Source: Arthrobacter sp. SDTb3-6
GTDB lineage: Bacteria; Actinomycetota; Actinomycetes; Actinomycetales; Micrococcaceae
Direction of reading: 5' to 3'
Assembly: GCF_013376095.1 (NCBI RefSeq)
Contig: NZ_JAAMFN010000002.1
Coordinates: 124,001 to 188,000, forward strand
Length of the DNA stretch: 64,000 bases
In this document: positions 41,133-43,383 of the stretch, in pieces
How the letters are laid out: each line of letters opens with the position of its first letter
Position numbering within the stretch: the stretch's first letter is position 1
Notes under the pieces: generated by a model
Told to the model about the DNA's origin: nothing
Database searches by the model: none
The model's input: the letters and a program-made list of their open reading frames with translations, nothing else
Position numbers and translations under genes: made by a program

Positions 41133-42005
41133 TCAGGCGGTCTCGACCGCCCGCCCCAGCATGGCCCTCATTTCGGCCGGACGGTTGGTGGTCACCTCGG
41201 CCACGCCGGCTGCCAGGCACAGCCGGAGGTCCTCGGCGGAGTCCACGGTCCACACGCGCAGGGTCCGTCCCGCGGCCAGCCAGCGGGCCGCGTTTTCCGG
41301 GTTGGCGCGCAGGTAGTCCACGCCGGGCCCGGCCAGCCCGGCCGTGCCGTCGTCCAGCAGGCCCTCGCCCGCCGCCTGGGCACGGCCCAGGATGAAGGCC
41401 AGGGTGTGCCCGGCGATGGGGCCGACGTCGAGCTCCTCGCGCAGCTCAGCCACCTCCACTTCCTCCAGCAGCTGGCACAGCTGCGCCGCCGGGACCCGTT
41501 CGGCCAGGTACTTCACGGCCTCGGGATGAAAGCTCATGAAGGACACCTCCACGTTGCCGGCCACGGAATCCGTGGCGTTCCAGCCGCGGGCCGCCAGCCG
41601 GTCCAGGGCGGCGTCCACCAGGCCGGCGTCAAAGAACGCCCCGTACTTGAACTCTATGGCCAGCCGCACCGCCCGGCCGGCGCCCGCCAGGATGTCCAGC
41701 AGCTCGTCCAGCGTCAGCAGCTGCCCGGCGGTGCCACCGTATTCGGGCGGGATGGTGGCGCCCTTCCAGGAGGCAAAGTCCAGTTCGCGCAACTCCGCCA
41801 GCGTGCGGTCCGCCACGGGGCCGGTGCCGTTGGAGGTGCGGTCCAGATCGTCGTCGTGGATCAGCACCAAGGCGCCGTCGGCGGTGAGGTGGAGATCGCA
41901 CTCCACCCCGTCGGCGCCGTCGGCCAGGGCCTGGAGGTAGGCGGCGCGGGTGTGTTCGGCATAGGTGCTGCTGGCTCCGCGGTGGGCAAATATCTTCACG
42001 TCCAT
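41133..42005 (-). CDS. ugpQ: Glycerophosphodiester phosphodiesterase
   Basis: This 290-residue TIM-barrel enzyme releases glycerol-3-phosphate from glycerophosphodiesters. Catalytic motifs are FAHRGASSTYAEHT, DGVECDLHLTADG, LIHDDDLDRTSNG and IEFKYG. The first ATG is preceded 6 nt earlier by TAGCGT, so it is probably leaderless. It is divergent from a DUF445 gene only 22 bp away. Confidence 0.93.
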   Translation of the reverse strand: MDVKIFAHRGASSTYAEHTRAAYLQALADGADGVECDLHLTADGALVLIHDDDLDRTSNGTGPVADRTLAELRELDFASWKGATIPPEYGGTAGQLLTLDELLDILAGAGRAVRLAIEFKYGAFFDAGLVDAALDRLAARGWNATDSVAGNVEVSFMSFHPEAVKYLAERVPAAQLCQLLEEVEVAELREELDVGPIAGHTLAFILGRAQAAGEGLLDDGTAGLAGPGVDYLRANPENAARWLAAGRTLRVWTVDSAEDLRLCLAAGVAEVTTNRPAEMRAMLGRAVETA

Positions 42006-42027
42006 GGCATCACGCTACGCTTGCAGC
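42006..42027. promoter_or_regulatory. Overlapping divergent leaderless promoters
   Basis: Only 22 bp separate two divergent ATGs. Minus-strand -10 TAGCGT (42017-42012) is 6 nt before ugpQ; plus-strand -10 TACGCT (42016-42021) is 6 nt before the DUF445 gene. The two hexamers share positions 42016-42017. Two polymerases could not bind both at once. Confidence 0.55.
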
Positions 42028-43314
42028 ATGGCGCAAACACAACAGCCCGGCACGCTCCCGTCGCCGGTTCCGGACCCCGACGCAGTCAAGGCCGCCGCGC
42101 TGCGCCGGATGAAGAACATTGCCCTGGGGCTGCTGGTCGCCATGGCCGTGGTCTTTTGCCTGGCCTTCGCCTTCCGGCGCGACTACCCGTGGCTGGCGTA
42201 TGTGCAGGCGGCCACCGAGGGCGGCATGGTGGGCGCCCTGGCCGACTGGTTTGCCGTCACCGCGCTGTTCAAGTACCCCATGGGCCTGAAGATCCCGCAC
42301 ACGGCCATCATCCCCAACCGCAAGGATGAGATCGGCGCGTCGCTGGGCGAATTCGTGGAGACAAACTTCCTCTCCGAATCCGTCGTGGCGGAGAAGCTGG
42401 CCAAGACGCAGATTGCCCAGAAGGCGGGCGCCTGGCTGTCCCGTCCCGCCAGCGCCCAGCGCGTGGCCACCGAGGGGGCGGCCGCGATGCGCGGCGCCAT
42501 GGCCGTCCTGAAGGACGACGACGTCCGCGACATCATCGAATCCATGGTCCGCAAGCACCTGGTCGACCCGCCGTGGGGCCCGCCCATCGGGAAGGTCGCC
42601 GAGCGGGTCTTCGCCGACGGCCACCACCACGCCCTCGTGGACCTGCTCGTGGACCGCTCCACCCTGTGGATCCAGGCCAACCACGACACCATCGCCGGAC
42701 TGGTCTCCGACCGGTCCCCCAGCTGGGTGCCGCAGTTCGTGGACGGGCTGGTGGGCGACAAGATCTACACCGAGCTGTACAAGTTTGCCCGGGCCGTCCA
42801 GCATGACCCCCACCACGACCTGCGCGTCCAGCTGGACAAGTACCTGGCCGAGCTCGCGCAGGAACTCCAGCACGATCCGGCCATGATCGCCCGGGCCGAA
42901 AACATCAAGGCGCAGGTGCTGGGCGATCCCGAGGTCCGCGACCTCGCCGGGCGCACGTGGGAGACCATCAAGACGGCCCTGTTTGACGCCGTCGAGGATC
43001 CGGCGTCGGAGCTGCGGTTGAAGTTCACCGCGGCCGTGCAGGAGTTCGGCACCCGCCTGGCCACCGACGAGGAACTGGCCGGCAAGGCCAACGCGTGGAT
43101 TTCCGACGCCGCCTCCTACCTGGTGCGCACCTACAAGCACGAGATCGCCTCCATCATCACGGACACCGTGGAGCGCTGGGACGCGGTGGAAACCAGCGAG
43201 AAAATCGAGCTGCAGGTGGGCAAGGACCTGCAGTTCATCCGCATCAACGGCACCGTGGTGGGCTCCCTCGCGGGCCTGGCCATCTTCACCGTCGCGACCC
43301 TGGTTTTCCGCTGA
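42028..43314 (+). CDS. DUF445 membrane protein (YjiN-like)
   Basis: This 428-residue protein has TM helices near the N-terminus (IALGLLVAMAVVFCLAFAFR) and C-terminus (VVGSLAGLAIFTVATLVFR). The DUF445 signature is YVQAATEGGMVGALADWFAVTALFKYPMGLKIPHTAIIPNRKDEIGASLG. The middle is a long helical domain. Function unknown; homologues are widespread. The start at 42028 is set by the TACGCT box 6 nt upstream; an extension would run through ugpQ's promoter. Confidence 0.88.
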   Translation: MAQTQQPGTLPSPVPDPDAVKAAALRRMKNIALGLLVAMAVVFCLAFAFRRDYPWLAYVQAATEGGMVGALADWFAVTALFKYPMGLKIPHTAIIPNRKDEIGASLGEFVETNFLSESVVAEKLAKTQIAQKAGAWLSRPASAQRVATEGAAAMRGAMAVLKDDDVRDIIESMVRKHLVDPPWGPPIGKVAERVFADGHHHALVDLLVDRSTLWIQANHDTIAGLVSDRSPSWVPQFVDGLVGDKIYTELYKFARAVQHDPHHDLRVQLDKYLAELAQELQHDPAMIARAENIKAQVLGDPEVRDLAGRTWETIKTALFDAVEDPASELRLKFTAAVQEFGTRLATDEELAGKANAWISDAASYLVRTYKHEIASIITDTVERWDAVETSEKIELQVGKDLQFIRINGTVVGSLAGLAIFTVATLVFR

Positions 43315-43322
43315 TCCAACTG

Positions 43323-43383
43323 GGTCGCAGTAGTTACAGAATTCGGGCCAGTGCAACCGTTTTCCGCCGCATTTACTGCGACC
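43323..43383. repeat. Inverted repeat between convergent genes
   Basis: GGTCGCAGTA (43323-43332) and TACTGCGACC (43374-43383) form perfect 10-bp arms around 41 nt of lower-GC sequence, between the DUF445 gene and the EcsC-like gene. It may be a terminator or a small repeated element. Confidence 0.4.

Follow-up and report, generated by a model that had tools for sequence, protein, structure and literature searches.

Bidirectional promoters, defined by divergent mapped start sites lying 7-25 bp apart, are described by Warman, Grainger and co-workers as present in all prokaryotes (PMC12825309, PMC10268837; these papers, like the others cited here, are represented by excerpts). A start spacing of 18 bp is the commonest, and spacings of 10 and 23 bp are also common (PMC12825309). 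Two polymerases cannot occupy such a promoter simultaneously; all five of the E. coli bidirectional promoters tested had basal activity too low for competition, and in E. coli one direction is repressed once the other is substantially activated (PMC12825309). In many bidirectional promoters the second RNA does not code for protein (PMC10268837).

Leaderless genes of Actinobacteria, whose mRNAs lack a leader, carry a TANNNT element that begins roughly 12 bp ahead of the start codon (PMC3160421, PMC3898074, PMC5741613); transcription from the start codon itself and the absence of a Shine-Dalgarno sequence are further marks of the type (PMC3160421). In M. tuberculosis, this element is often preceded by a CGN triplet, and no conserved -35 motif was found in the promoters of that organism (PMC3898074). 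A figure legend in the same paper names closely juxtaposed divergent promoters as a common feature, and the divergent pair prpD/Rv1129c is leaderless on both sides, with both genes up on starvation (PMC3898074). No mention of shared -10 elements was found in the excerpts of PMC3160421, PMC3898074 and PMC5741613, and no description of fused leaderless divergent pairs was found in the excerpted text of the literature matches listed.

The divergent pair analysed here, a GDPD-family glycerophosphodiester phosphodiesterase gene and a DUF445 gene, resembles the known bidirectional promoters in its overlapping -10 elements on opposite strands and its predicted 23-bp spacing (PMC12825309, PMC10268837). 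The known cases rest on starts mapped in E. coli and Salmonella, however, whereas the starts of the GDPD/DUF445 pair are predicted and coincide with start codons. The TANNNT placement is that of actinobacterial leaderless genes, which the excerpted papers treat as single genes (PMC3160421, PMC3898074, PMC5741613). Judged by its predicted starts, the site belongs to the 23-bp class already described among bidirectional promoters, and in this instance both genes are predicted to lack a leader.

Two overlapping predicted -10 elements in a 22-bp intergenic region

The locus lies in a stretch of 64,000 nucleotides (the window) from a 4.3-Mb genome assembled in 144 contigs, whose closest named relatives among the matches listed are Arthrobacter species. 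The GDPD gene occupies positions 41133-42005 of the minus strand (PF03009, 4.4e-39; ATG 42005-42003) and the DUF445 gene positions 42028-43314 of the plus strand (PF04286, 1.3e-117; ATG 42028-42030), and both are predicted to be leaderless. The entire intergenic region, 42006-42027, is 22 bp long. A preliminary description had placed the two ATGs 22 bp apart, with hexamers that each end exactly 6 nt before their own ATG and overlap by 2 bp, and the coordinates and sequence agree with it on each point: the predicted -10 element of the DUF445 promoter, TACGCT, lies at 42016-42021 on the plus strand, that of the GDPD promoter, TAGCGT, at 42012-42017 on the minus strand, and the TA dinucleotide common to both at 42016-42017. 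Its label 'ugpQ' for the minus-strand gene has been set aside; Pfam gives GDPD (PF03009), and three NCBIfam matches fall far below their cut-offs. For DUF445, YheB and YjiN, the literature matches listed gave nothing on function. A 10-bp inverted repeat, GGTCGCAGTA at 43323-43332 with TACTGCGACC at 43374-43383, was noted by eye between the end of the DUF445 gene and the end of a convergent downstream ORF.

The first T of TANNNT stands 12 nt upstream of the start codon of each gene, and inspection by eye revealed no Shine-Dalgarno-like run in the 22 bp on either strand. The TAG of the minus-strand hexamer (42017-42015) is an in-frame stop upstream of the GDPD ATG and closes that frame, so the GDPD gene cannot start further out; its Pfam match begins at residue 8. 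If transcription starts at the ATGs, the predicted start sites are 23 bp apart and the shared TA takes positions -12/-11 of both promoters. Because both predicted starts fall on start codons, promoter and intergenic region would be the same 22 bp, and with two leaderless genes, 6-nt spacers and a shared TA the gap must have this length.

A sigma-70 scan that requires a -35 element returned no promoter in 41500-42500. Across 21 fused loci, searched with spacers of 15-20, the best -35 matches were 3/6 in 20 loci and 2/6 in one on the GDPD side; on the DUF445 side they were 3/6 in 14, 4/6 in five, 5/6 in one and 2/6 in one. Since no hexamer was common to all 21, no conserved -35 was found in these loci and a -35-based reading was dropped, in agreement with the M. 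tuberculosis promoters (PMC3898074). The DUF445 -10 element is preceded by CGC or CGT, which fits the CGN triplet, and the GDPD element by GCG, which does not.

The window contains a single copy of the fused pattern, CAT-N6-ANNNTANNNT-N6-ATG, and 100 dinucleotide shuffles produced none. In the whole genome the pattern also occurs once, the reversed control giving no site. The pattern at the GDPD/DUF445 site is not due to chance, and with a single site, frequent use of the fused form by the source genome is ruled out. TANNNT-N6-ATG by itself occurs eight times in the window (2.27 expected). In a 344-kb sample of the source genome (14 stretches plus the window, counting only ATGs that open at least 150 codons), TANNNT lies 6 nt before 11 of 2065 ATGs and 7 nt before 13, and the remaining 24 offsets between 0 and 25 have counts of 0-6 each. 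This peak at 6-7 nt is the leaderless signature seen in Actinobacteria, as excerpted from PMC3160421. The source genome also holds a site of the 18-bp class, TANNNTA (G000:C74:16974-16996, L158), flanked by two ATGs, one of which opens a long ORF and the other a frame of only 24 codons.

Conservation in the genus and origin of the fused form

The preliminary description had proposed comparing the spacing across relatives. The 22-bp fused pattern is present at the GDPD/DUF445 site in 20 of 23 congeneric genomes, and a scan of the genus finds it somewhere in the genome in 22 of the 23. One further genome (G020, L098) has a 23-bp gap at this site, and two, G010 and G017, are unfused, with gaps of 78 and 125 bp. 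Among 19 fused loci, which comprise 15 distinct 22-mers and exclude the 23-bp locus and loci with a repeated start region, 13 of the 22 gap columns are invariant, compared with only two of 110 fourfold sites of DUF445. Invariance is concentrated in a 12-bp core at 42011-42022 (11 of 12 columns), the limits of which were set after viewing the columns. All six columns of the DUF445 hexamer, including the shared TA, are invariant in the 19 loci, and five of six in the GDPD hexamer; column 42015 reads C on the plus strand in 18 loci and T in one. This conservation, together with the genome's own leaderless signature, supports well the claim of the preliminary description that both genes are leaderless and have -10 elements overlapping by 2 bp, the starts themselves remaining predicted.

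One record labelled Sporosarcina beigongshangi (L010, NZ_JADHDY010000021.1) carries an Arthrobacter-type locus with 81% DUF445 identity and is therefore probably mislabelled or contaminated; its 22-mer is that of L093 (G012).

With repeats included, 85 loci carry the two genes divergently no more than 400 bp apart, and in 77 of them a TANNNT precedes an in-frame start of each gene by 6 or 7 nt. Once repeats are taken out, the gap is 22 bp in 19 loci, 23 in one, 49 in six and 50 in 32, and gaps of 52, 54, 78, 99, 115, 125, 129 and 169 bp occur once each. This list omits the eight loci that lack a leaderless candidate on at least one side (L050, L052, L053, L057, L108, L110, L111 and L112), repeated start regions, L060, where the genes are 2 kb apart, and the DUF445-only loci L061-L083, L109 and L113. 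The DUF445 start is kept 6-7 nt behind TANNNT across gaps from 22 to 169 bp. Single long-gap cases may be wrong because the scan for starts, which accepted a choice of start codons and any offset of 5-8 nt over a range of 300 nt, had some freedom; the constant gap of 49 or 50 bp is hard to obtain by chance. Gaps of 57-190 bp from tblastn had first suggested that leaderless placement is not conserved in relatives, a reading overturned by the start-codon scan. In sister genera (L016-L049, L051, L058, L059 and L107), two separate leaderless promoters stand 49 or 50 bp apart with variable middle bases, and these gaps often have GGGCTA-like ends that face each other as an inverted repeat (by eye).

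A tree was built from 76 distinct concatenated rows, with the most distant of them as its only root; in it, the 21 fused rows form one clade (SH-aLRT 100). The fused form is nested: its clade adjoins L015 (gap 78, support 95) and then L012 (gap 125, support only 13), and all of these fall within a group that also contains L011, L013 and L014 (support 95). The fused state needs one change on this tree. The 22 bp of the fused locus L006 equal the GDPD-side 12 nt of L012 and the DUF445-side 12 nt of L015, joined so that they share the TA. Because the fused form makes up one clade and its longer-gap relatives mostly have two separate leaderless promoters, a deletion probably joined the two at the shared TA (42016-42017), the proposed deletion joint.

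Recurrence across the class

Across 394 genomes of the actinomycete class, sites anchored on start codons are more numerous in the 23-bp form than in the 18-bp form. The fused 22-bp pattern gave 242 sites in 160 of these genomes, with 57 in 53 for the reversed control, and the 18-bp class, TANNNTA, gave 127 sites in 99 genomes, with a control of 51 in 42. An unfused arrangement, represented by the single spacing of a 36-bp gap, gave 41 sites in 39 genomes and a control of three, a by-eye sum for a pattern with two more fixed bases. After subtraction of the reversed controls, 185 sites remain for the 23-bp form, 76 for the 18-bp form and 38 for the unfused one. The recurrence is position-specific: when both hexamers were shifted away from the ATGs by another 3 nt, the count was 41 sites in 38 genomes, the control giving 49 in 37. 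One family of 40 small genomes (f44) contributes 78 of the 242 sites and 15 of the 57 control sites, and 164 sites remain without it, compared with 42 in the control. These totals were summed from per-genome rows, with genome numbers (160, 38, 99 and, for the unfused form, 39) that match the tallies of the scans; the sites are not independent events, since one site is counted anew in each related genome that has it. Of 29 fetched sites, 14 lie between two ORFs of 80 codons or more, compared with one of 12 CAT-N22-ATG sites without the hexamers; with only 14 of 29 so flanked, part of the 242 is chance. The class-wide excess is statistical, and single sites may be chance.

Five sites were picked for their long ORFs, and nine of their ten proteins matched a family in a Pfam scan. 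One site has a cation efflux gene opposite a pyrroline-5-carboxylate reductase gene, another (L159, in G207) a UPF0014 gene opposite one for cobalamin adenosyltransferase, and a third a GT4 glycosyltransferase gene opposite that of a nucleotidyltransferase with a GlmU-like repeat. The fused 28-mer of L159 is found in three genomes of one other genus (G207, G166, G226) and, with changes, in a fourth (G129), and appears to be another conserved fused promoter.

The nucleotidyltransferase with a GlmU-like repeat is taken here to be GlgC-like, and it presumably acts in one pathway with the GT4 glycosyltransferase. A search of 60 genomes with this protein recovered 30 loci, 22 of which have a divergent GT4 gene; 15 of the 22 have leaderless candidates on both sides. 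The fused 22-bp form is seen in two of the 15, L167 and L163 (which is one site with L129); in the remaining 13 the gap ranges from 40 to 181 bp. In L167 (G076), where the GT4 gene begins with GTG, the 22 bp are, by eye, a perfect palindrome, so the two promoters are identical in sequence within them. At these two loci the GlgC-like/GT4 pair has the geometry of GDPD/DUF445, a 22-bp gap in which the -10 elements share the TA and each ends 6 nt before its start codon; the genes are different ones, in other actinomycetes. Recurrence at this pair would fit balanced co-expression.

A probable single promoter read in two directions

We consider it likely that the 22 bp constitute a single bidirectional, -10-only housekeeping promoter that yields two leaderless mRNAs at steady, unswitched output and that arose by one deletion. 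The two start sites, separated by 23 bp, would be the A residues of the start codons, with RNA polymerase, presumably carrying the housekeeping sigma factor, landing either way round on the shared TA. One landing would block the other for that event only. Both genes would then be expressed at a fairly steady, low ratio, their outputs loosely tied. The fused form would have arisen once in the genus, when a deletion merged two ancestral leaderless promoters at the TA (-12/-11), and selection on both -10 elements would maintain it.

The preliminary description went further and proposed mutually exclusive promoters that act as a built-in switch coupling the two genes. Mutual exclusion follows from the geometry for each polymerase binding event; the switch itself finds no support. 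An activator that favoured one orientation and so shut off the other gene could exploit the inability of opposing polymerases to bind together, and in E. coli, activation one way tends to repress the other; at the basal level, however, all five promoters tested there showed little competition (excerpts of PMC12825309). Since their basal activity was too low for it, steady and loosely tied outputs would be expected. Against the switch stand also the lack of a conserved -35 in the fused loci and the concentration of conservation within the 22 bp in the -10 core, and we regard it as very unlikely.

It is very unlikely, in our estimation, that the 22 bp act as a promoter in one direction alone, the second hexamer being a by-product of symmetry and its gene being driven by a promoter inside the neighbouring gene. 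TANNNT is admittedly a loose motif, and the often non-coding nature of the second RNA (PMC10268837, in excerpt) would agree with such a reading, but both hexamers are nearly invariant in the fused clade. Moreover, in the listed relatives with gaps of 49-169 bp each hexamer stands 6 nt from its own ATG (once 7, on the GDPD side of L015); there the hexamers lie apart, and therefore neither is a by-product of the other. The same separation bears on the possibility that the 22-bp conservation marks a protein-binding site rather than promoters. A 12-bp near-invariant block might be expected of such a site, but this block falls on the pair of TANNNT hexamers, which stand at the leaderless offset, and its halves occur apart in relatives, each beside its own ATG. 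This last alternative seems to us highly improbable.

A single bidirectional promoter formed by deletion raises a broader proposal, on which we consider the case evenly balanced: that leaderless divergent pairs of actinomycetes repeatedly collapse, by deletion between their -10 elements, to a preferred 22-bp TA-sharing promoter in which one landing site would set the ratio of two proteins, GDPD/DUF445 and GlgC/GT4 being separate cases. The GDPD/DUF445 site brings leaderless genes and bidirectional promoters, which have been studied separately, together in a single geometry recognisable from sequence alone, and this geometry offers an easy means of proposing bidirectional promoters before any RNA has been mapped. 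The probable deletion that fused its two promoters can be located on a tree, and sites of such strict geometry would be suited to asking whether polymerase competition matters in vivo.
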